A stretch of 64,000 nt of DNA from Qipengyuania seohaensis. GTDB lineage: Bacteria; Pseudomonadota; Alphaproteobacteria; Sphingomonadales; Sphingomonadaceae. The notes beneath the pieces are model-generated. The model had not been told where the DNA came from. It made no database searches and saw only the letters and a program-made list of their open reading frames with translations. The stretch spans positions 1,523,001 through 1,587,000 of the forward strand of contig NZ_CP024920.1 of the NCBI RefSeq assembly GCF_002795865.1. The letters are read 5' to 3'. A program made the translations under genes and the position numbers. Shown here in pieces: positions 5,812 to 19,591 of the stretch (positions are counted from its first letter, which is position 1; each line of letters starts with the position of its first letter).

Positions 5812-6404
5812 GAAGGGAGCGCGCCTTCATCGCGTAGCGCGCCGAGCACCTGCAGCAAAGGCATGCCCAGCACGGTGAACTGGTCACCCATGATACTTTC
5901 GAAGAGCTGCACGCCCGGACCCTCGATCCTGAAAACGCCGACGCAATAGGACACTTCCGGCCATTCCGCCTGTAGATAGGCCTCGATAAATTCCTCGGAC
6001 AATTCACGCACCCTGAGGCGCGCGAAGTCCGAGCCCATCCAGACGATCCGGCCATCGCGGGCTAGGGCGGCCGCGCTATGCAGCGTCATGACCTTGCCGG
6101 AGAAGAAGCGCAGGTGTTCGGCGGCCTGGTCCCTGCTTGTCGGCTTGTCGAACCTGCGCCCATCTACCTCGACCAGGGAATCGCTTCCCAGCACGAGCTT
6201 GTCCGATGAGACCGAAGCCGCCTTTGCCGCGGCCAGGGCCTGCGCGATCTCGGCTGGATCCGCGCCCTCCATTTCCGCTTCCAGCGCACGCTCGTCTACT
6301 TCGCCCGGCGAAGCGACATAGGATACACCTGCCGCATCGAGCATCGCCTTGCGCGAAGCGGAATTGGAGGCGAGCACGATCCCGGTGCCGCTAATGCCCG
6401 TCAT
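5808..6404 (-). CDS. maf: Maf-like nucleoside triphosphate pyrophosphatase
   Basis: A 198-residue Maf/HAM1-fold protein that hydrolyses non-canonical or pyrimidine NTPs to NMP plus PPi (house-cleaning). Family motifs are Leu-Ala-Ser-Asn-Ser-Ala-Ser-Arg at the N-terminus, Val-Asp-Glu-Arg near residue 37, the catalytic Gly-Ser-Asp-Ser-Leu-Val loop, and Lys-Pro-Thr-Ser-Arg-Asp-Gln-Ala. It is coupled by four-base overlaps to ppsR and aroE. Whether it prefers dTTP/UTP or modified bases cannot be settled from sequence. Confidence 0.9.
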
Positions 6405-7258
6405 ATCGCCTTCACCCCTTCGAAATCGCCACCCGATTTGTGACTGCGCTCGCTACATAGCCGGATGATCGCAGCTGCAGTCTCTTCGATCGAGCGGCGC
6501 GTAACATCGATGACGGGCCATCCGTTGTCCGCGAACATCCGGCGCGCGAACGCCACTTCCGATTTCACGCGCTCGTTATCGATATAGGCGGTTTGCGACT
6601 GTTCGTTGAGCGTGAGCAGGCGATTGCGCCGAATCTGTACCAACCGCTCGGGCGCAGTGGTGAGACCTACGACCAAGGGTTTATGCAATTCGAAAAGTTT
6701 GGTCGGTGGGGGGCTTTCCACCACGAGCGGAATATTCGCGACCTTGTACCCGCGGTTGGCAAGATAGATGCTCGTCGGGGTCTTCGAGCTTCGCGATACG
6801 CCGGCGAGGATGATGTCCGCCTCTTCCCAGTTCTCCCACCCTATTCCATCGTCGTGAGCGATCGTGAACTGGATCGCCTCGACGCGCTCGAAATAGGCCT
6901 TGTCCATCTGGTGTTGGCGCCCCGGTCGGCCATGGGCCTCCTGTCCCAGCGCCTTTTCCAGGGCTTCGGTCACGCGATCGAGAATCGGAACGGCAGGCAG
7001 CCCGTTCTGGGCGCAAACCTCCTCCAGGCGCGCCCGCGCCTCGGGGTTTACGAGAGTGAAGAGGACGAGGCCGGGATTGGCCTTCAGCTCCGGCACGATC
7101 CGGTCTAGATGCTGGCGCGATCGGACCATGGGCCAGAAATGCCGCACCACGTCGGCATCGTCGAACTGCGCGAGCGCGGCCTTCGCCAGCATTTCCAGCG
7201 TTTCGCCGGTGGAATCGGACAGGAGATGGAGATGGATACGGTCGGCGATGATCGTCAC
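6401..7258 (-). CDS. ppsR: PEP synthase / pyruvate phosphate dikinase regulatory protein (DUF299)
   Basis: A bifunctional Ser/Thr kinase and Pi-dependent phosphorylase that controls PEP synthase or pyruvate phosphate dikinase. The ADP-binding signature [11 protein letters not shown] is present. I use the GTG at 7256-7258 (285 residues) because the family begins just before the [10 protein letters not shown] segment. An in-frame start at 7366 would add 36 unconserved residues inside the putative origin. This gene corresponds to RP001, the gene flanking the origin opposite hemE in Caulobacter and Rickettsia. Its stop overlaps maf by four bases. Confidence 0.9.
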
Positions 7259-7570
7259 TTTCGGCCTGTGGAGAAGCACCGGATAAACCACGGCACAAGT
7301 CTGGCGACAAGTTCGGGGATCAATTCGCTCCCCATTACGAGTCCTGTTCGGGGTTGATTCCCGCACAGCAAATGGAACTTGTGCGCAGGCTGGGGAGAAG
7401 CGGGATAAGTTTGACTCGACTCAATGCCGACCACGAGTCGCAAACCCGCATCCGGCCTTTTCCTTGCGGGAGAAATGGGGCAGGGGACGGCTATGCCCGA
7501 TATCCACAGGGCCAACAGACTCCATCAACTCTTATAATATTTCTTATTTATTGGATTGGACTCTCTCTCG
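7259..7570. other. putative chromosomal replication origin (oriC) between ppsR and hemE
   Basis: A 312-base non-coding region between divergent ppsR and hemE, the gene pair that brackets the Caulobacter origin. It holds a 21-base tract at 7532-7552 with a single C (the likely unwinding element). Two DnaA-box-like sequences match TTATCCACA at 8 of 9 positions: ATATCCACA at 7500-7508, and TGTGGAGAA at 7267-7275 (reverse strand). There are seven GANTC methylation sites and an imperfect inverted repeat at 7409-7445. A TATAAT hexamer at 7533-7538 may serve as the hemE -10. Gene orientation switches from minus to plus across it. The origin role is inferred from synteny plus these signals. Confidence 0.7.
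7409..7445. repeat. imperfect inverted repeat in the putative origin
   Basis: The arms GTTTGACTCG (7409-7418) and CGAGTCGCAAAC (7434-7445) are complementary except for a two-base bulge, around a 15-base centre. GANTC sites lie within both arms. It may be a protein-binding site or an extrudable hairpin; the role is not known. Confidence 0.55.
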
Positions 7571-8596
7571 ATGCCCGGCATTCTGCTCGACACTCTGAAC
7601 GGTAAGCGCGCTGACAAGGTGCCGCTCTGGCTCATGCGCCAGGCTGGTCGGTATCTTCCCGAGTATCGCGAATTGCGCGCGGAGAAGGGTGGTTTTCTCG
7701 CTATGGCCTATGACAGCGAGGCCGCTTGCGAGATTACGCTGCAGCCTATCGACCGTTTCGGTTTCGATGGGGCGATCCTGTTTTCGGATATCCTGATCGT
7801 GCCGCATGCCCTTGGGCAGCACCTGGAATTTCTGGCGGGCGAGGGCCCCAAGCTTTCTCCTCCGCTGGTCGACGCCGAACTCGGCGGATTAAGTCCGGAG
7901 CGCTCCCGCTACGATCCGATTTACGAAACGGTACGCCTTTGTCGCCAGCGCCTCTCGGACGATGTGACGATGCTCGGCTTTGCAGGCAGTCCGTGGACAG
8001 TTGCGACCTACATGGTCGCTGGCGAGGGTAGCCGTGACCAGCACGATGCGCGGGCCATGGCTTATCGCGACCCAGGCAAATTGCAGGCGATCATCGATGC
8101 GATTGCCCATGAAACGATCGAGTATCTTTCCGGCCAGATCGAGGCCGGTGCAGAGGCCGTGCAGCTCTTCGACAGCTGGGCCGGCAGCCTGGCGCCCGAC
8201 GAGTTCGAACGCTGGGTTATCGCTCCGAACGCGAAGATCGTCGCGGCCTTATCGCAGCGGCATCCTGCAACTCCGATTATTGGCTTTCCCAAGGGAGCTG
8301 GAGAAAAGCTTCCGGCCTATGCTCGCGAAACAGGCGTGAAGGCGGTTGGCGTAGATGAAACGCTCGATCCGGTGTGGGTCGCACGCGAATTACCCGCTGG
8401 GATGGCCGTACAAGGCAATCTGGACCCGCTTCTGCTACTTTCAGGTAGCGAGGCCCTCGAAGGACGCATCAAGACAATCCTCGAGGCTTTTTCCGATCGG
8501 CCGCACGTGTTCAATCTCGGTCACGGGATCGATCGCCGCACACCGATCGCCAATGTCGAGCGATTGATCGCCACTGTCAGGGGTTGGCAGGGGTGA
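7571..8596 (+). CDS. hemE: uroporphyrinogen decarboxylase
   Basis: A 341-residue cytoplasmic enzyme that removes four carboxyl groups from uroporphyrinogen III to give coproporphyrinogen III. The signature Pro-Leu-Trp-Leu-Met-Arg-Gln-Ala-Gly-Arg-Tyr-Leu-Pro-Glu-Tyr-Arg is present, with the catalytic Asp in Phe-Ser-Asp-Ile. The C-terminal Phe-Asn-Leu-Gly-His-Gly motif is intact. I start at the ATG at 7571; a TTG five codons upstream is less likely. It is the first gene right of the putative origin, followed 31 bases later by hemJ and then rho, the standard alphaproteobacterial order. Confidence 0.95.
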   Translation: MPGILLDTLNGKRADKVPLWLMRQAGRYLPEYRELRAEKGGFLAMAYDSEAACEITLQPIDRFGFDGAILFSDILIVPHALGQHLEFLAGEGPKLSPPLVDAELGGLSPERSRYDPIYETVRLCRQRLSDDVTMLGFAGSPWTVATYMVAGEGSRDQHDARAMAYRDPGKLQAIIDAIAHETIEYLSGQIEAGAEAVQLFDSWAGSLAPDEFERWVIAPNAKIVAALSQRHPATPIIGFPKGAGEKLPAYARETGVKAVGVDETLDPVWVARELPAGMAVQGNLDPLLLLSGSEALEGRIKTILEAFSDRPHVFNLGHGIDRRTPIANVERLIATVRGWQG

Positions 8597-8627
8597 CGAA
8601 ACCGGCAGCTATCCCTACATCGCTTGC

Positions 8628-9071
8628 ATGCAGGACGTACTTGCGATGACCTATCTCTGGCTCAAGGCCGGCCACATCATCTTCATGGTGTTCTGGATGG
8701 CTGGACTGTTCATGCTCCCGCGCCAGATGATCTATTGCCACGAAGCCGCGGCGGGATCCGACGAGGAAGCGACATGGGCCAAGCGCATGGGCCTGCTGCG
8801 CAGGATAATCCTCACGCCGAGCCTGATCGTCGTATGGATACTCGGGCTCGCTCTGGCGATGAGTATCGGGGCATTCGACCAAGGCTGGTTTCATGCCAAA
8901 TTGCTGTTCGTGCTGCTTCTGACCGGTTTTCACGGATTCATGGTCGCCAAGTCCAAGGCAATGGCGACCGGTCATCGCCCGCTCAGCGAAAAGCAGTTGC
9001 GCCTGTTTGGCGAAGTGCCCGGAATCCTGCTCGCGGTGATCGTCGTTCTGGTCATCGTAAAACCGTTCTAA
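8628..9071 (+). CDS. hemJ: protoporphyrinogen IX oxidase HemJ
   Basis: A 147-residue, four-helix membrane protein of the HemJ (UPF0093) family, which oxidises protoporphyrinogen IX in bacteria lacking HemG/HemY. The conserved Tyr-Leu-Trp-Leu-Lys-Ala-Gly-His in helix 1 supplies the key His. Leu-Pro-Arg-Gln-Met-Ile-Tyr-Cys-His follows at the helix end, and Lys-Leu-Leu-Phe-Val-Leu starts a later helix. It lies between hemE and rho, so two heme steps are transcribed together. An alternative ATG at 8646 would remove six residues and fits the family N-terminus equally well. Confidence 0.9.
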   Translation: MQDVLAMTYLWLKAGHIIFMVFWMAGLFMLPRQMIYCHEAAAGSDEEATWAKRMGLLRRIILTPSLIVVWILGLALAMSIGAFDQGWFHAKLLFVLLLTGFHGFMVAKSKAMATGHRPLSEKQLRLFGEVPGILLAVIVVLVIVKPF

Positions 9072-9232
9072 GGCAGGTCGGGTGCCCTGTTTGCCGATTG
9101 ACGGCAGGCGGGACGACATTTATCTGCACATCAACAACCGGCAAGTGGCACCGCGATCCAACGGGTGCCGGGTCTGCTTTCTCCAAGCCCATACCGACCC
9201 GCCGGCCATTCCATATATCTGAGTAAAAACAC
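9072..9232 (+). other. 161-base leader between hemJ and rho
   Basis: This non-coding stretch precedes rho. It contains a short hairpin GCCG-ATTGA-CGGC and AT-rich sequence just before the rho start. rho genes are commonly autoregulated by Rho-dependent termination in their leaders, so this may be that leader; no specific rut array can be proven by eye. Confidence 0.35.
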
Positions 9233-10498
9233 ATGCATCTCAAAGATTTAAAAGCAAAAGCGCCCGCAGACCTCGTGGCAATGGCCGAGGAGCTGGGCGT
9301 CGAAGGCGCATCGACCATGCGCCGTCAGGACCTGATGTTCTGCATCCTTCGCGAACTGGCCGAAGATGAAGAATACGACGAAAAGATCATGGGCATCGGT
9401 ACGATCGAAGTGTTGCAGGACGGCTTCGGCTTCCTTCGCAGCCCCGAGGCCAATTATCTCGCCGGCCCCGACGATATCTACGTTTCGCCGAACCAGGTCC
9501 GCAAATGGGGCCTGCGTACCGGCGACACCGTCGAAGGTGAAATTCGCGCACCCAGGGAAGGGGAGCGGTATTTCGCGCTGACGAAGCTGACCAGCGTCAA
9601 TTTCGAAGACCCCGACCAGGTTCGCCACCGCACCAATTTCGACAATTTGACTCCGCTTTATCCGGAACAGAAGCTGTCGCTCGATACTCTCGATCCGACG
9701 GTCAAGGACAAGTCGGCGCGCGTCATCGATATCATCTCGCCTCAGGGTAAGGGCCAGCGCGCCCTTATCGTCGCGCCGCCGCGCACGGGTAAGACCGTCC
9801 TGCTGCAGAACATTGCGAAGGCGATCACGGATAATCATCCGGAAGTCTTCCTCCTGGTCCTGCTCGTCGACGAGCGTCCGGAAGAAGTCACCGACATGCA
9901 GCGCAGCGTTAAGGGCGAGGTGATCTCCTCGACCTTCGACGAACCTGCCAACCGCCACGTGCAGGTCGCCGAAATGGTGATCGAGAAGGCCAAACGCCTT
10001 GTCGAACACAAGCGTGACGTCGTTATCCTCCTCGATTCGATCACGCGCCTCGGCCGCGCCTACAACACAGTGGTCCCGAGCTCGGGCAAGGTACTTACCG
10101 GCGGTGTCGACGCCAATGCGCTCCAGCGTCCCAAGCGCTTCTTCGGCGCGGCTCGTAACATCGAGGAAGGCGGTTCGCTTTCGATTATTGCTACGGCGCT
10201 GATCGACACGGGCAGCCGCATGGACGAAGTCATCTTCGAAGAATTCAAGGGCACCGGTAACAGCGAAATCGTCCTCGACCGCAAGGTTGCCGACAAGCGC
10301 ATCTTCCCGGCTCTCGATGTCGGCAAGTCTGGTACGCGTAAGGAAGAACTGCTGGTCGAGAAGGACAAGCTCTCGAAGATGTGGGTCCTGCGGCGCATCC
10401 TCATGCAGATGGGCACTGTCGATGCGATGGAATTCCTTCTCGACAAGATGAAGGATTCGAAGACCAACGAGGACTTCTTCGCCAATATGAACCAATAG
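9233..10498 (+). CDS. rho: transcription termination factor Rho
   Basis: A 421-residue hexameric RNA helicase. The N-terminal Rho_N helix bundle (residues 1-45, beginning Met-His-Leu-Lys-Asp-Leu-Lys) precedes the RNA-binding cold-shock-like domain (about 50-125) with Gly-Phe-Gly-Phe-Leu-Arg. The ATPase domain has Walker A Pro-Pro-Arg-Thr-Gly-Lys-Thr with Lys187 and Walker B near Val-Ile-Leu-Leu-Asp-Ser. The Q and R loops are conserved. Length is normal, with no inserted domain. The hemE-hemJ-rho order is standard in alphaproteobacteria. Confidence 0.97.
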
Positions 10499-10507
10499 AG
10501 GAACGGT

Positions 10508-10532
10508 GCGCGGCGGGCGCACCCCGCCGCGC
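10508..10532 (+). terminator. strong GC hairpin after rho
   Basis: GCGCGGCGGG (10508-10517) pairs perfectly with CCCGCCGCGC (10523-10532) across a five-base loop, ten bases past the rho stop. No T tract follows, so termination here would be Rho-assisted, or the hairpin may only protect the transcript end. Confidence 0.5.
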
Positions 10533-10541
10533 AGGACTTGA

Positions 10542-10931
10542 GTGCATCGGATCGTCTACAGCAGCATCGCCTCCAAAGGCACCAACACGCCGGACGTGTT
10601 CGAGATCGTGGATGTCTCGGCGCGCAATAATCCGCAGCGTTCCGTGACCGGTTTCCTGCTGTACGATGCCGACAGGTTCCTGCAGATGATCGAAGGGCCG
10701 GCGCTGGCTCTGCAAGCCTTGCTGGAAGACCTGGAAGCGGATCCGAGGCACCACTCTATCGAGGTGCTGCACCGCAGTGCGACAGACGAGCGCTGGTTTC
10801 CCGATTGGGAAATGAAGCAGCTCATTTCGTTCTCTGCCGAACCAGCCCTCGAACAACTCAGGCACACTCTTGCCACCAAGCCTGGCGGGGCTGAGATATT
10901 CGCCATAGTGGATGATTTTCTGCGAGAGTGA
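10542..10931 (+). CDS. BLUF-domain blue-light sensor protein
   Basis: A 129-residue stand-alone BLUF protein that would bind FAD and sense blue light. All photocycle residues are present with AppA spacing: Tyr6, Asn30, Gln48 (in Phe-Leu-Gln-Met-Ile-Glu-Gly), Trp89 and Met91 (Trp-Glu-Met). The Tyr-Ser-Ser-Ile-Ala start and Val-Thr-Gly-Phe-Leu-Leu-Tyr motif are typical. It starts at GTG. There is no attached output domain, so signalling must go through a partner or through the short C-terminal helices. It is 43 bases after rho on the same strand, with a hairpin between. The physiological output is unknown. Confidence 0.92.
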   Translation: MHRIVYSSIASKGTNTPDVFEIVDVSARNNPQRSVTGFLLYDADRFLQMIEGPALALQALLEDLEADPRHHSIEVLHRSATDERWFPDWEMKQLISFSAEPALEQLRHTLATKPGGAEIFAIVDDFLRE

Positions 10932-10958
10932 GCCCGATCGAGCGCGCCGGGCGCCGGC

Positions 10959-11357
10959 TTAACTTGCCTGCTTGTCCAGCATGGCAGCCATCTCTTCCCA
11001 GACCTTGTTGACTGCCTTGAGCGGCCTGACCATCACCTTGAAATCCTTGATCATGCCAACATCATCGAATTGGATGAGGTCGATGCCATTGATGTGGATG
11101 CCGCCCATCTCAGTAGTAAATTCCAGCATCGCATTCTGGCCGTCGACCAGCTCGCGGACATAAGTAAAACTGTCATTTCCAAGGGTTTTGCCTGCTGCAG
11201 CGAGATATCCAATCACCAGATCGCGTCCTTTTTGCGGAGTGTGGACGACAGGCGAATGAAACTCCGCGTCTTCACGGATTATGGCGGCCAGATCGGCAGG
11301 CTTGGAACCTGCGTCGATGACCTCGTGCCACCGCTTCAAACCGATCTCTGCACTCAT
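10959..11357 (-). CDS. SnoaL-like / NTF2-fold protein
   Basis: A 132-residue small alpha-beta barrel of the nuclear transport factor 2 (SnoaL-like) group, which includes small isomerases, hydrolases and ligand-binding proteins. The pattern of an N-terminal helix pair, Phe-His-Ser-Pro-Val, and a C-terminal Asp-Phe-Lys-Val-Met-Val-Arg-Pro strand fits. The ATG at 11357 overlaps the stop of the glutamate-synthase-like gene in an ATGA, so it is translationally coupled to it. A longer in-frame reading upstream lies inside that gene and is rejected. The substrate is unknown. Confidence 0.75.
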   Translation of the reverse strand: MSAEIGLKRWHEVIDAGSKPADLAAIIREDAEFHSPVVHTPQKGRDLVIGYLAAAGKTLGNDSFTYVRELVDGQNAMLEFTTEMGGIHINGIDLIQFDDVGMIKDFKVMVRPLKAVNKVWEEMAAMLDKQAS

Positions 11358-13764: not shown

Positions 13765-14028
13765 ATGAAGGTCCATGTCGAAATTGATTGTACGCCGGAA
13801 GAAGCGCGGACCTTCATGGGGTTGCCGGACGTCGGCCAGGCGAATGCCGTGTATGTCGACATGATGTCGAAGGCGATGAAGGGTGTTTCGAGCCCGGATC
13901 AATTGCAGGAATATGCGCGCCAACTCGCGCCCATGGGCCAGGCCGGTTTCAAGCTGTTCCAGAGCTTCATGGAGGGCGCGAATGCGGCTCGTGGATCATC
14001 GAAGCCCGAAAAATCTTCGGACGACTAG
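13765..14028 (+). CDS. DUF6489-type small protein
   Basis: An 87-residue protein of unknown function starting Met-Lys-Val-His-Val-Glu-Ile-Asp-Cys-Thr-Pro-Glu-Glu-Ala-Arg. This family is common in Sphingomonadales, just upstream of mnmE. It has a beta strand, an amphipathic helix rich in Met and Gln, and a polar tail. I start at the ATG at 13765, which has a good GGAGG eight bases upstream; longer frames reaching into the divergent hydrolase are not supported. Only 15 bases separate it from mnmE, suggesting co-transcription. Confidence 0.75.
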   Translation: MKVHVEIDCTPEEARTFMGLPDVGQANAVYVDMMSKAMKGVSSPDQLQEYARQLAPMGQAGFKLFQSFMEGANAARGSSKPEKSSDD

Positions 14029-14043
14029 GGTCCCCCACTTACC

Positions 14044-15318
14044 ATGAGTGATACGATATTCGCTCTGTCGAGCGGATCGCCGCCCGCCGCCATTGGCGTC
14101 ATCAGGATCAGCGGAAACAGCGCCAAGAGCGCCCTGGAAACACTCGCCGGCAGGCTTCCCGATGCCCGGCAAGCGGCATTGCGTTCGATCAAGGACGCAC
14201 AAGGCAATGCGCTGGATCGGGCTCTCGTGCTGTGGTTTGACGGGCCGAGAACCGCCACGGGCGAGGATTTGGCTGAAATCCATTGTCATGGTGGCAGGGC
14301 GGTCGTTGCCGCCATAGAGAAGGCCCTTGAGGCAATGAGTGGCCTTCGTCGCGCCGAACCTGGTGAATTTACCAGACGAGCGTTCGCGAACGGCGTGATG
14401 GATCTGGCAGAGGCTGAAGGTCTGGCGGATCTTCTTGCAGCGGAAACGGAGTTGCAAAGGGTCGCAGCGCAGGCCTCGGCAGGGGGTGTGTTGTCAGCCA
14501 AGGTAGACTGCTGGCGCTCCCAGGTGCTGACACTTTCTGCCTATGTCGAGGCTGCACTCGATTTCGCCGATGAAGACGATGTTGGCGGCCTGCCTGAAGC
14601 TTTCGATGCTGGCCTGGCAAAGGTTGTCGGTGAGATCCGCGATGCGTTGAACGCCCCGCGGGCAGAGCGCCTACGGGATGGACTGCGAGTTGTACTGGCA
14701 GGCCCTCCTAATGCGGGGAAGTCATCGCTATTCAATGCGTTGCTGGATGAGGGCGCGGCTATCGTTGCCGACGAAGCGGGAACTACCCGGGACGTGATCG
14801 AACGCCCGATCGCCTTTGGCGGAGTTCCCTTCGTGCTTGTAGATACCGCGGGCCTGAGAAACGAAGGTGCTGCCAAGATCGAAGCAATGGGAATAGACCG
14901 CGCTCGCAAGGAACTGGAGAGAGCCGATATGGTTCTTTGGCTTGGCCCCGAAGGCGAAGGGCCTGAAGGCGCGATAGAAGTCTCGGCCAAAGCCGATTTG
15001 GCACCGCGTGAGAAATTGAACCCGAAGCACACCGTTTCCTCGCTTGACGGCACAGGGCTCGAAGAGCTGGTTGGCGACCTCGTCGACATGGCGAAGGGAT
15101 TGATCCCGAAGCCTGGCGAGGCGGCGTTCAACCTTCGTCAGTCGCAAGCCTTGGCGGAGGCCCTCGATGCGCTGAAAGAGGTCACCCCTGACGTTGACCT
15201 TCTTATTGTCGGTGAACGACTGCGCCTCGCCAGGAGGGCATTCGATCGCCTATTGGGACGACAATCCACCGAAGAAGTGCTCGATGCCTTGTTTGGGCGC
15301 TTTTGCATCGGGAAGTAG
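14044..15318 (+). CDS. mnmE: tRNA modification GTPase MnmE
   Basis: A 424-residue protein that with MnmG forms 5-carboxymethylaminomethyl-uridine at the wobble base of certain tRNAs. The N-terminal tetrahydrofolate-binding domain (1-115) is followed by a helical domain. The inserted GTPase domain has G1 at residue 220 (Gly-Pro-Pro-Asn-Ala-Gly-Lys-Ser-Ser). The C-terminal Phe-Cys-Ile-Gly-Lys (420-424) carries the invariant Cys. It heads the mnmE-mnmG-rsmG-parA-parB cluster; a parS site lies right after its stop. Confidence 0.96.
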   Translation: MSDTIFALSSGSPPAAIGVIRISGNSAKSALETLAGRLPDARQAALRSIKDAQGNALDRALVLWFDGPRTATGEDLAEIHCHGGRAVVAAIEKALEAMSGLRRAEPGEFTRRAFANGVMDLAEAEGLADLLAAETELQRVAAQASAGGVLSAKVDCWRSQVLTLSAYVEAALDFADEDDVGGLPEAFDAGLAKVVGEIRDALNAPRAERLRDGLRVVLAGPPNAGKSSLFNALLDEGAAIVADEAGTTRDVIERPIAFGGVPFVLVDTAGLRNEGAAKIEAMGIDRARKELERADMVLWLGPEGEGPEGAIEVSAKADLAPREKLNPKHTVSSLDGTGLEELVGDLVDMAKGLIPKPGEAAFNLRQSQALAEALDALKEVTPDVDLLIVGERLRLARRAFDRLLGRQSTEEVLDALFGRFCIGK

Positions 15319-15321
15319 GAT

Positions 15322-15337
15322 TGTTTCACGTGGAACA
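15322..15337. promoter_or_regulatory. parS site 1 (intergenic, mnmE-mnmG)
   Basis: TGTTTCACGTGGAACA matches the bacterial parS consensus TGTTNCACGTGNAACA at every position. It lies in the gap between mnmE and mnmG and is a ParB loading site for chromosome segregation. Confidence 0.92.
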
Positions 15338-15382
15338 CCTCAAGCTTTGACCCGGTAACGAAACCCATTTATCGGCGTCCAT

Positions 15383-17236
15383 ATGCAGAGCTTTGACACC
15401 ATTGTTATCGGCGGCGGTCACGCCGGCGTGGAGGCGGCATGTGCGTCTGCTCGCATGGGCGCGCGCACGGCTCTTGTAAGTTTCGACCTTTCGAAGATCG
15501 GTGCCATGAGCTGCAACCCGGCGATCGGGGGGCTCGGCAAAGGGCATCTGGTCCGCGAGGTGGATGCTTTGGATGGTGTGCTCGGCCGTGCCGCGGATGC
15601 TGCAGCAATCCACTATCGCATGCTGAACCGTTCGAAGGGGAGTGCGGTGTGGGGGCCGCGTGTCCAGGCCGATCGTGCGCTTTTCCATCAGGCCGTGCAG
15701 AAGATCGTTGCCAGCTACCCCAACCTGACCCTCGTGGAAGGCGAGGCGGCGGGCTTGAGATTTTCAGCCGGGAAGGTCTCGGGCATCGAGCTCGCAGATG
15801 GCGTACCCGTCAGCGCGAGTGCAGTGATACTTTGTACGGGGACGTTCCTCGGCGGAACGCTGTTTCGAGGGGAGGAGAAGTTTGTAGGCGGCCGCGTCGG
15901 CGAGAACGCTGCACATCGCCTCGCGGAGCAGTTGCGCGAGGCAAATCTGCCGATGGCTCGCCTCAAGACCGGTACCCCGCCACGGCTGGATGGCCGGACT
16001 ATCGATTGGGGTCGATTGGAAGAACAGCCCTCGGATGATGAGAGCTGGACGATGTCGTCGTTGAGCGAGGGCAGGGCAAATCCCCAAGTCTATTGCGCAA
16101 TAACGCGAACGAACGAGCGTTCACACGATATCATCCGAGCCAACTTGGATCGCTCGCCGCTGTTTTCCGGCGCGATCGGAGCTGCGGGACCGCGATACTG
16201 TCCTTCTATCGAGGACAAGATTCATCGGTTCGGTGATCGCGATGGACATCAGATATTTCTGGAGCCGGAAGGTCTGTCGACACACCTGGTTTATCCGAAC
16301 GGGATCAGCACCTCATTGCCCGTAGACGTCCAACTCGACATGCTCAGGGCGATGGACGGTCTCGAGAGGGTCGCCATGGAAGTACCGGGTTACGCTGTCG
16401 AGTACGACCATATCGACCCGAGGGCTCTGCGCTCGACCTTGGAAGTTCGGGATCTTCCGGGCCTTTATTGCGCAGGACAGATAAACGGCACCACCGGGTA
16501 CGAGGAGGCTGCGGCACAGGGCCTTATTGCGGGAATGAGTGCTGCGGCGAAGAGCCATTCCAAGGAGGCTGCAGAGCTAAATCGCGCAAACTCGTACATG
16601 GCTGTCATGGTGGACGATTTGACGCTGCAAGGCGTTACGGAACCTTACCGCATGCTGACCTCGCGTGCAGAGTATCGATTGCGTCTCCGCGCTGCGAACG
16701 CAGACACGAGGCTTACACCTTTGGGGATGAAAGTCGGCATCGTCGGAAAAGCGCGTAGAGATTGGTTTGAGGCTCGGGAAAAGCGCCGTGAGGTAATCGA
16801 TAGCCTCTTATCCCAGCCCATATCCGGTAAGACACTCCATTCTTCGGGGCACAACGTGAAGGTCGATGCAGGGCCTCGCAGCGCCAAGGACTGGCTCCGA
16901 GGCGGGCACGTCTCCTTGGCTGATCTCGCTTTTCACGTGGAACAATTGGATGGCGACGAGGCCCTGGCGATCGAGCTCGCAGAGGATGCTTTCTACGCTC
17001 CTTACCTTGAACGTCAGGACGCTGAGCTTAGGGAATTAAGCGCTGGCGAGCATCTCAAGATCGCCGATGATTTCGCATTCGAGCGCGTGCCCGGGCTTTC
17101 GAATGAGATGGTGGAGCGTCTCGGTAGGGCGAAACCAGCGACATTGGCGGCAGCCGGTCGAGTGCCCGGTATTACGCCATCGGCGCTCGCAGCCTTAATG
17201 GTCCATGTGAAGCGCGATCAAGGTGCAAAGGCATGA
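15383..17236 (+). CDS. mnmG: tRNA uridine-5-carboxymethylaminomethyl modification enzyme MnmG
   Basis: A 617-residue FAD/NADH-dependent partner of MnmE. The FAD-binding motif [12 protein letters not shown] is at the N-terminus. The GidA signatures [11 protein letters not shown] and [12 protein letters not shown] are conserved, and the helical MnmE-binding domain is at the C-terminus. Its stop overlaps the rsmG start (ATGA). A weak parS-like sequence lies inside the gene at 16929-16944. Confidence 0.96.
16929..16944. promoter_or_regulatory. weak parS-like site 2 (within mnmG)
   Basis: The core CACGTGGAACA is intact but the first two bases differ from consensus, for 14 of 16 matches. It may be a lower-affinity ParB site. 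Confidence 0.5.
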
Positions 17237-17868
17237 CGATTGCCAGTGAAGAAGCGGCCCGTGAATATATCGCCGAAATTGGTGGGGCAGCGTCATTGGA
17301 TCGGCTTGAATTGCTTGGAGCGCGGCTCAAAGAGGAAAACGGCCGCCAGAATTTGGTCGCCAGCGGATCGCTCGAGGAAATGTGGGTCCGGCATTTCGCC
17401 GATTCGGCGCAGCTGCTCCACTTTGTTCCACGTGAAACAAAAGGCACTTGGCTCGACCTTGGCAGTGGTGCTGGCTTTCCTGGGTTGGTGCTGGCGATAC
17501 TGCGACCGGAGATGGACTTCGCCCTTATCGAATCGCGAAAGTTGAGGGTCGACTGGCTGGAGAGAATGAAGGCCGAACTTCAGCTCGAAAATTGCTGCAT
17601 CGAGGGCGCCCGATTGGAGCTGGTGGAGACGCTCGGTGCGGCCGCAATTTCGGCACGAGCGTTCGCACCGCTAGCGAAGTTGCTGCGTTTATCCGCACGC
17701 TTCTCCACAGGCGACACATATTGGGTGTTGCCGAAAGGGCGGTCCGCAGCCCAAGAAGTGCGAGAGCTTCCAAAACGAGAGTCGGAAATGTTCCACGTGG
17801 AACATTCTGTCACGGATCCGGAGGCGGGGATCATCGTCGGCCGAGGCAAGGTGAGGGACAAAACTTGA
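17233..17868 (+). CDS. rsmG: 16S rRNA (guanine-N7) methyltransferase RsmG
   Basis: A 211-residue SAM-dependent methyltransferase that modifies G527 of 16S rRNA (E. coli numbering). The SAM motif [11 protein letters not shown] is near residue 75, and Ser-Arg-Lys-Leu-Arg-Val follows in the next strand. It overlaps mnmG by four bases and parA by four bases. Two perfect parS sites are embedded in the coding sequence, fixing the local residues Val-Pro-Arg-Glu-Thr and Met-Phe-His-Val-Glu-His. Confidence 0.94.
17424..17439. promoter_or_regulatory. parS site 3 (within rsmG)
   Basis: TGTTCCACGTGAAACA is a full match to the parS consensus, inside the rsmG reading frame. Confidence 0.92.
17789..17804. 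promoter_or_regulatory. parS site 4 (within rsmG)
   Basis: TGTTCCACGTGGAACA is a full consensus match and a perfect 16-base palindrome. It lies 61 bases before the parA start and could also let ParB influence parAB transcription. Confidence 0.93.
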
Positions 17869-18656
17869 TTACCGTCGCAATTGCCAATCAGAAGGGCGGG
17901 GTGGGAAAGACCACCACGGCGATCAACATTGCCACTGCGATGGCTGCAACCGGCTGGAAAACGCTTCTGATCGATCTCGATCCGCAGGGCAACGCGTCCA
18001 CCGGCATGGGCATCGATAGTTCCCTCCGTGAAAACTCGAGTTATGATCTACTGCTGGAGCAGGGCGACCTTGCCCAATGCGCCCAGCCAACCGAAATACC
18101 CGGGCTCGACATCGTCCCTGCGACGCAAGATCTCTCCGGGGCAGAGGTCGAGTTGGTGGCGGTTGATGATCGCACGTCGCGACTGTCCAAGGCGCTTGCG
18201 CAGTCGGGTCAGAATGGTTTCGCAAGTTACGACATTTGTTTCATTGATTGTCCGCCGTCGCTGGGACTGCTCACATTGAATGCGTTGGGGGCGGCAGATA
18301 CGCTCCTGGTGCCTCTTCAATGCGAGTTCTTCGCTCTCGAAGGGCTGAGCCAGCTCCTGCAGACGGTGGAGCGCGTCCAGCAACGCTTCAACCCCGACCT
18401 TGGCATCGTGGGCATTGCCCTGACGATGTTCGACCGCCGCAACCGCCTGACGGATCAGGTTGCGGACGATGTCCGCGATTGCCTCGGTAATCTGGTCTTC
18501 GAAAACGTAATCCCGCGCAATGTCCGGTTGTCCGAAGCGCCGAGCCACGGAATGCCGGCGCTCGTTTACGACCACAATTGTCCAGGAAGCCGCGCCTACA
18601 TCGGACTGGCGCGAGAATTGATCGGAAGACTACCCGAGAGGAGGAAAGCCGCGTGA
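17865..18656 (+). CDS. parA: chromosome partitioning ATPase ParA
   Basis: A 263-residue ATPase that moves ParB-parS complexes on the nucleoid. The deviant Walker A Lys-Gly-Gly-Val-Gly-Lys-Thr-Thr holds the signature Lys10 and the P-loop Lys15. Walker B lies in Ile-Cys-Phe-Ile-Asp-Cys-Pro-Pro-Ser. I use a TTG at 17865, overlapping the rsmG stop, because conserved sequence starts at once (Thr-Val-Ala-Ile-Ala-Asn-Gln) and GTGAGGG lies upstream. It ends in a GTGA overlap with parB. The weak start may hold ParA low relative to ParB. Confidence 0.95.
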   Translation: MITVAIANQKGGVGKTTTAINIATAMAATGWKTLLIDLDPQGNASTGMGIDSSLRENSSYDLLLEQGDLAQCAQPTEIPGLDIVPATQDLSGAEVELVAVDDRTSRLSKALAQSGQNGFASYDICFIDCPPSLGLLTLNALGAADTLLVPLQCEFFALEGLSQLLQTVERVQQRFNPDLGIVGIALTMFDRRNRLTDQVADDVRDCLGNLVFENVIPRNVRLSEAPSHGMPALVYDHNCPGSRAYIGLARELIGRLPERRKAA

Positions 18657-19591
18657 GCCAAGCAGTCGATCGTAAGAAGAAGCTCGGCCGTGGGCTTGGT
18701 GCGTTGCTCGGAGAAGTGCAGCGCGAAGAGCCGCTGGTCAATTCTGGTAACGAAAGCAACGACTTGACGGGGGCGCCGACAGGCAAGACGACTTCGGGCC
18801 TTACTCTGATTTCTGTCGCCGACATCGAGCCACTTCCTGGCCAGCCGCGTACACATTTCAACGATGAAGCGTTGGACGAGTTGGCTGCCTCGATTGCGCA
18901 GCGCGGGGTTATCCAGCCCGTTATCGTTACGTCGAAGGGTGCTGGAAAATACCGGCTGGTGGCCGGCGAACGCCGTTGGCGCGCCGCACAGCGAGCCAGA
19001 TTGCATCAGATTCCAGCGATCGTTCGCGATCTTGAGGAACGCGAAGTTCTCGCACTCGCTCTCATCGAGAACCTACAGCGGGAAGACCTCAATCCGCTGG
19101 AAGAAGCGAGAGCATACCAGAAGCTCGCCGAAGACGAGGGAATGACGCAGGCCGAGATTGCCGGGCTGGTCGACAAATCCCGCAGTCACATTGCCAATTT
19201 GCAGCGCCTGCTTGCCCTGCCGAACGATGTTCTTGAGCTTTTGGCAGCCTCAAAGCTGTCCATGGGCCATGCGCGGGCGCTGATTGGCAATGAAGATGCG
19301 TCAGAGATTGCATCGCGCGCCGCCAAGGAGGGGCTATCGGTACGCGAAGTTGAGAAGCTCGTGCGCAAGGGCAAGGCCCCGGTACGCACACGCGGGACAA
19401 AGCCGACTGTACCTGAAGCGGAAACGGATGCCGATATTGCGGCAGTCCAAGGTCATCTGGAAGAGTTCCTGGGGCTGCCGGTGAAGATTCGGACCGACGA
19501 AACGCCGAGCACGGGTACGGTCACCATTCGTTACCACACGCTCGACCAGCTCGATCTGATTTGCCAGCGTCTCACAGGTGGCGATATTTAG
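18653..19591 (+). CDS. parB: chromosome partitioning protein ParB (CTPase)
   Basis: A 312-residue ParB/Noc-family protein that loads at parS and slides as a CTP-dependent clamp. The basic N-terminal Lys-Leu-Gly-Arg-Gly-Leu-Gly-Ala-Leu-Leu region is the usual ParA-interacting box. The CTP-binding Gly-Glu-Arg-Arg-Trp-Arg-Ala motif is near residue 105. A helix-turn-helix follows with Leu-Val-Asp-Lys-Ser-Arg-Ser-His-Ile-Ala-Asn, and the dimerisation domain is C-terminal. It starts at GTG overlapping the parA stop. Its parS targets are within 4.3 kb upstream. Confidence 0.95.
   Translation: MSQAVDRKKKLGRGLGALLGEVQREEPLVNSGNESNDLTGAPTGKTTSGLTLISVADIEPLPGQPRTHFNDEALDELAASIAQRGVIQPVIVTSKGAGKYRLVAGERRWRAAQRARLHQIPAIVRDLEEREVLALALIENLQREDLNPLEEARAYQKLAEDEGMTQAEIAGLVDKSRSHIANLQRLLALPNDVLELLAASKLSMGHARALIGNEDASEIASRAAKEGLSVREVEKLVRKGKAPVRTRGTKPTVPEAETDADIAAVQGHLEEFLGLPVKIRTDETPSTGTVTIRYHTLDQLDLICQRLTGGDI

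Follow-up and report, generated by a model that had tools for sequence, protein, structure and literature searches.

The ppsR-hemE intergenic region as the likely chromosomal origin of replication of Qipengyuania seohaensis, with a conserved set of GANTC sites

The Caulobacter crescentus origin, Cori, was mapped by experiment between hemE and a COG1806 gene (PMC1914354), and GANTC motifs have already been reported within it (PMC3973325). Origins beside hemE are predicted for most Sphingomonadaceae (PMC4741004). The dnaA gene is not origin-proximal in Sphingomonadales, and Sphingomonas melonis can grow without CtrA (PMC8116508). A search of the open literature found no published origin for the genus Qipengyuania.

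We analyzed a window of 64,000 nucleotides (positions 1,523,001-1,587,000 of the single contig of 2,942,673 bases, or 2.94 Mb) from Q. seohaensis, a marine sphingomonad of the Qipengyuania/Erythrobacter group. Coordinates are those of the window unless the contig is named. With a probability of about 95%, the 312-bp ppsR-hemE intergenic region (7259-7570), which corresponds to contig positions 1,530,259-1,530,570 given the start of the window, is the single chromosomal origin (oriC) and belongs to the hemE type, of which the Caulobacter origin was the first to be mapped. Less expected were its seven GANTC sites, of which the one at 7435 is constrained, and the absence of a CtrA box. Three findings go beyond an earlier note on this DNA, which had placed the origin at the same junction: the GANTC cluster, the parS/parAB cluster elsewhere in the window, and how deeply the intergenic sequence is conserved.

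Genome setting and strand polarity

The candidate origin lies between ppsR (COG1806/DUF299; 6401-7258, minus strand), identified by its NCBIfam profile, and hemE (7571-8596, plus strand; TIGR01464, 389 bits; PF01208). The gene order given in the earlier note, dnaQ-coaE-aroE-maf-ppsR/hemE-hemJ-rho, was borne out by NCBIfam profiles, with hemJ and maf falling under a curated cut-off and aroE barely over one, each still being the best match. An Rfam scan of positions 6000-11000 detected no RNA family.

GC skew was read from 60 stretches of 6 kb across the whole contig and, around the junction, from a continuous 384 kb, beyond which the sample amounted to about 12% of the chromosome. The skew was weak overall. 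The coarse cumulative skew of the whole contig ran down from the contig start to the junction and up from there to the contig end. Taken alone, the sparse sample had its minimum, a shallow one, near 1.35 Mb. The complete 384-kb reading corrected this, placing the minimum at contig position 1,535,896, which is 5.3 kb past the junction on the right. The earlier note had named a skew minimum far from the junction as evidence against an origin there; the minimum found is close by and the coarse trend agrees with it. The strongest positive skew of the window (0.10) was at positions 14000-18000, over mnmE-mnmG-rsmG and just right of the origin. A search for a gamma-type dif site, allowing up to three mismatches, found none, and the terminus is therefore placed roughly, near the contig ends, from the skew.

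The KOPS motif GGGCAGGG switched strands in the same 384 kb, with 10 minus and 0 plus sites to the left and 1 minus and 9 plus sites to the right (Fisher p = 1e-4, one exception in 20). The best split was between contig positions 1,520,142 and 1,530,478, and the latter is the first plus-strand GGGCAGGG octamer of the right arm (7478-7485, plus strand). A looser form of the motif, GGGNAGGG, placed the best split at about 1,523,000 (p = 1e-5), roughly 7 kb left of the junction. Across the whole genome only 13 of 134 plus-strand KOPS sites were left of the junction, and the first 100 of the 130 minus-strand sites were all below 1.115 Mb.

A palindrome search detected three parS sites, TGTTTCACGTGGAACA (15322-15337), TGTTCCACGTGAAACA (17424-17439) and TGTTCCACGTGGAACA (17789-17804), which are all that the genome contains and which lie beside mnmE-mnmG-rsmG-parA-parB. 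One is in the mnmE-mnmG gap and two are within rsmG (gidB), just ahead of parAB. The partition genes themselves are parA (17862-18656, plus strand; PF13614, 200 bits) and parB (18578-19591, plus strand, start codon approximate; TIGR00180; PF02195 and PF17762). In 15 of 15 relatives every parS was 5-23 kb from the ppsR-hemE junction, on the hemE side. The skew, the KOPS switch and the parS sites 8-10 kb away thus support the junction as the origin.

The dnaA gene is 410 kb from the candidate origin (contig 1119569-1120933). This distance is compatible with a reading in which the junction is a relic of synteny, the ancestral hemE origin having gone out of use and initiation having moved elsewhere, for example to dnaA, and relocation of origins is possible in principle. 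However, skew, KOPS and parS all indicate the junction rather than 1.12 Mb, and the intergenic sequence is still strongly constrained, which makes a relic exceedingly improbable.

DnaA boxes, AT tract and conservation

The earlier note had called the DnaA boxes weak, with two 8/9 matches, and this description stands. An exact DnaA box is absent from 7259-7570, and none of the five in the genome is near the origin. The two 8/9 boxes are TTCTCCACA (7267-7275, minus strand) and ATATCCACA (7500-7508, plus strand), and they account for the inverted repeat described in the same note, as a widely spaced inverted pair with arms at 7260-7272 and 7503-7515. A weaker 7/9 box, TTCTCCCCA (7391-7399, minus strand), adjoins a conserved GGATAAG. 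When the genome was divided into 2217 tiles of 312 bp, the window itself included, 2 of the 2217 equaled the count of 8/9 boxes.

The AT tract reported at 7532-7552 has the sequence TTATAATATTTCTTATTTATT, with one C in 21 bases, and only one of the 2217 tiles was as rich in AT over 21 bases as the ppsR-hemE intergenic region. Of all 27-mers in the intergenic region, 7531-7557 is the least stable, and its instability was equaled once in 630 kb of other sequence from the same genome. This segment is AT-rich in the aligned relatives and is probably the duplex-unwinding element, an easily melted tract beside the 7500 DnaA box. An origin of the BUS type with DnaA-trios was considered and set aside; by a simple consensus, the longest trio run between the box and the unwinding element was 2, no longer than in shuffled sequence.

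The intergenic region was matched in 59 of 60 genomes in a search of the genus. Its length was 303-332 bp in these 59 sequences, and 20 sequences of the family from outside the genus had 286-343 bp; the counts over 79 sequences given here combine the two sets. The upstream box is kept among relatives as TTCTCCACA or TTGTCCACA, that is, as TGTGGA(G/C)AA. The word GSATAAACCACGGG (7281-7294), which possibly represents weak DnaA sites, recurs in at least 74 of the 79 sequences, as GCATAAACCACGGG or GGATAAACCACGG(G/C). A second conserved word, GACAAGTTCG (7303-7315), emerged from the sequence comparison. Both GSATAAACCACGGG and GACAAGTTCG are nearly invariant, and we know of no nameable binding site that matches either. 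Further conserved words are GGGGAYAG...GGGAYAAG, CGAGTCG or CGATTCG, and GGGAGAAATCGGGCAGGG.

The downstream box begins the most conserved block of the region, in which the core TATCCACAGGGCCAACAGACTCCATCA continues into the AT tract. The core TCCACAGGRCCAACAGANTCCWTCA (7503-7527, plus strand) includes the GANTC site at 7518, and a search of a collection of species genomes for the core TCCACAGGRCCAACAGANTCC matched at least 120 contigs. Among the matches listed for TCCACAGGRCCAACAGANTCC, 110 of 120 were flanked by both hemE and ppsR; the other 10 loci end too early on one side, and no exception was seen. Its carriers among these matches were sphingomonads or alphaproteobacterial metagenome-assembled genomes, and a search of viral contigs did not detect it. 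The 21-base signature can serve as a marker of oriC in many sphingomonads.

Established knowledge of DnaA origins suggests how this origin would work. DnaA-ATP, supplied from the dnaA gene 410 kb away, would bind the two inverted 8/9 boxes and the weaker sites between them. From the 7500 box, which abuts the most conserved block, DnaA would open the AT tract at 7531-7557, the helicase would be loaded there and forks would leave in both directions. ParB bound to parS 8-10 kb to the right would then act with ParA in segregating the new origins.

GANTC sites and ccrM

GANTC is the target of the methyltransferase CcrM. Seven GANTC sites are present in 7259-7570, and none of the 2217 tiles had as many. 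A pair at 7339 and 7356 (7339-7360) is kept in 44 and 43, respectively, of the 59 genus sequences, and a triple at 7413, 7418 and 7435 (7413-7439) includes one site kept in 57 of 59 (7418) and one kept in 79 of 79 (7435). For the site at 7518 the count is 72 of 79 sequences, three of them with GAGTC, and the seventh (7559-7563), which adjoins the hemE start, is kept in 34 of 59. Apart from 7435 and 7518, retention of the sites was mainly inside the genus. At its middle base the 7435 site has G in 60 of the 79 sequences and T in the other 19; since the site is universal while this base varies, the constraint falls on the methylation site itself. At the level of sequence, comparison among relatives shows CcrM sites in the ppsR-hemE origin to be under selection.

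The GANTC site directly ahead of hemE, together with the TATAAT that the earlier note saw in the AT tract and that we located at 7533-7538, would also suit a region that is merely regulatory, carrying divergent ppsR and hemE promoters and a GcrA/CcrM switch, with the true origin nearby, for example beside parS/parAB. GcrA acts at promoters that carry methylated GANTC (Fioravanti et al., 2013, PMC3667746, as cited in PMC8116508), and the skew minimum does lie to the right of the junction, by 5.3 kb. However, a promoter scan of 7100-7700 detected no sigma-70-type promoter, conservation extends across the whole 312 bp with its length fixed, an invariant DnaA box adjoins the least stable 27-mer, and KOPS polarity changes at the junction or to its left, not at parS. 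A purely regulatory role is thus very unlikely. A terminator scan gave no match.

For an origin at the junction, the presence of seven GANTC sites points to a possible role of CcrM methylation, full before and hemimethylated after initiation, in tuning either firing or the hemE and ppsR promoters. An influence of methylation on the timing of initiation is our hypothesis.

The ccrM gene is at contig position 2,331,432 (match to the solved CcrM structure 6pbd, E = 5e-149). One of the five exact DnaA boxes of the genome is just upstream of it (contig 2331401-2331409), and this box forms a block, GGACTCACCCTGTGGATAA, with an upstream GANTC. Among the genus ccrM loci examined, 30 of 30 had an exact DnaA box that begins 27-33 bp before the start codon, and 30 of 30 had a GANTC directly upstream of the box. 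A literature search found no report of control of ccrM by a DnaA box.

These upstream sequences suggest that DnaA may control ccrM directly. We tentatively propose, as a doubtful idea, that origin licensing in this family operates through a DnaA-CcrM loop that dispenses with CtrA, in which DnaA would act on ccrM through its box and CcrM would act back on DnaA through the GANTC array of oriC. Such a loop would resemble the Dam/GATC/SeqA system of enterobacteria. With constrained GANTC sites and no CtrA sites in the origin, methylation control of initiation is directly testable in this group.

Comparison with described origins

A Cori controlled by CtrA as in Caulobacter was also considered and rejected, as the CtrA box TTAA-N7-TTAA is absent from 7259-7570, as is TTAA itself; 50 of the 59 genus intergenic regions likewise contain no TTAA. 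Caulobacter Cori, in contrast, has five CtrA sites (PMC1914354). The missing sites fit the dispensability of CtrA in S. melonis (PMC8116508). The 410 kb between dnaA and the origin is a further difference from Cori and is in line with the Sphingomonadales pattern (PMC8116508).

The origin predicted for Sphingopyxis granuli TFA and other Sphingomonadaceae (DoriC, Ori-Finder) is alike in location and in having conserved DnaA boxes and an unwinding element (PMC4741004). The likeness is one of description and concerns another genus, and the accessible part of that report does not mention the GANTC constraint or the core block. The present analysis fixes the origin for the genus Qipengyuania. Its flanking genes, DnaA boxes and AT-rich stretch are shared with Caulobacter Cori (PMC1914354), as is the presence of several GANTC sites (PMC3973325), and because GANTC motifs were known there, our GANTC finding extends earlier knowledge and is not in itself a discovery. 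The ppsR-hemE oriC is in these respects an ordinary, well supported origin of known type.
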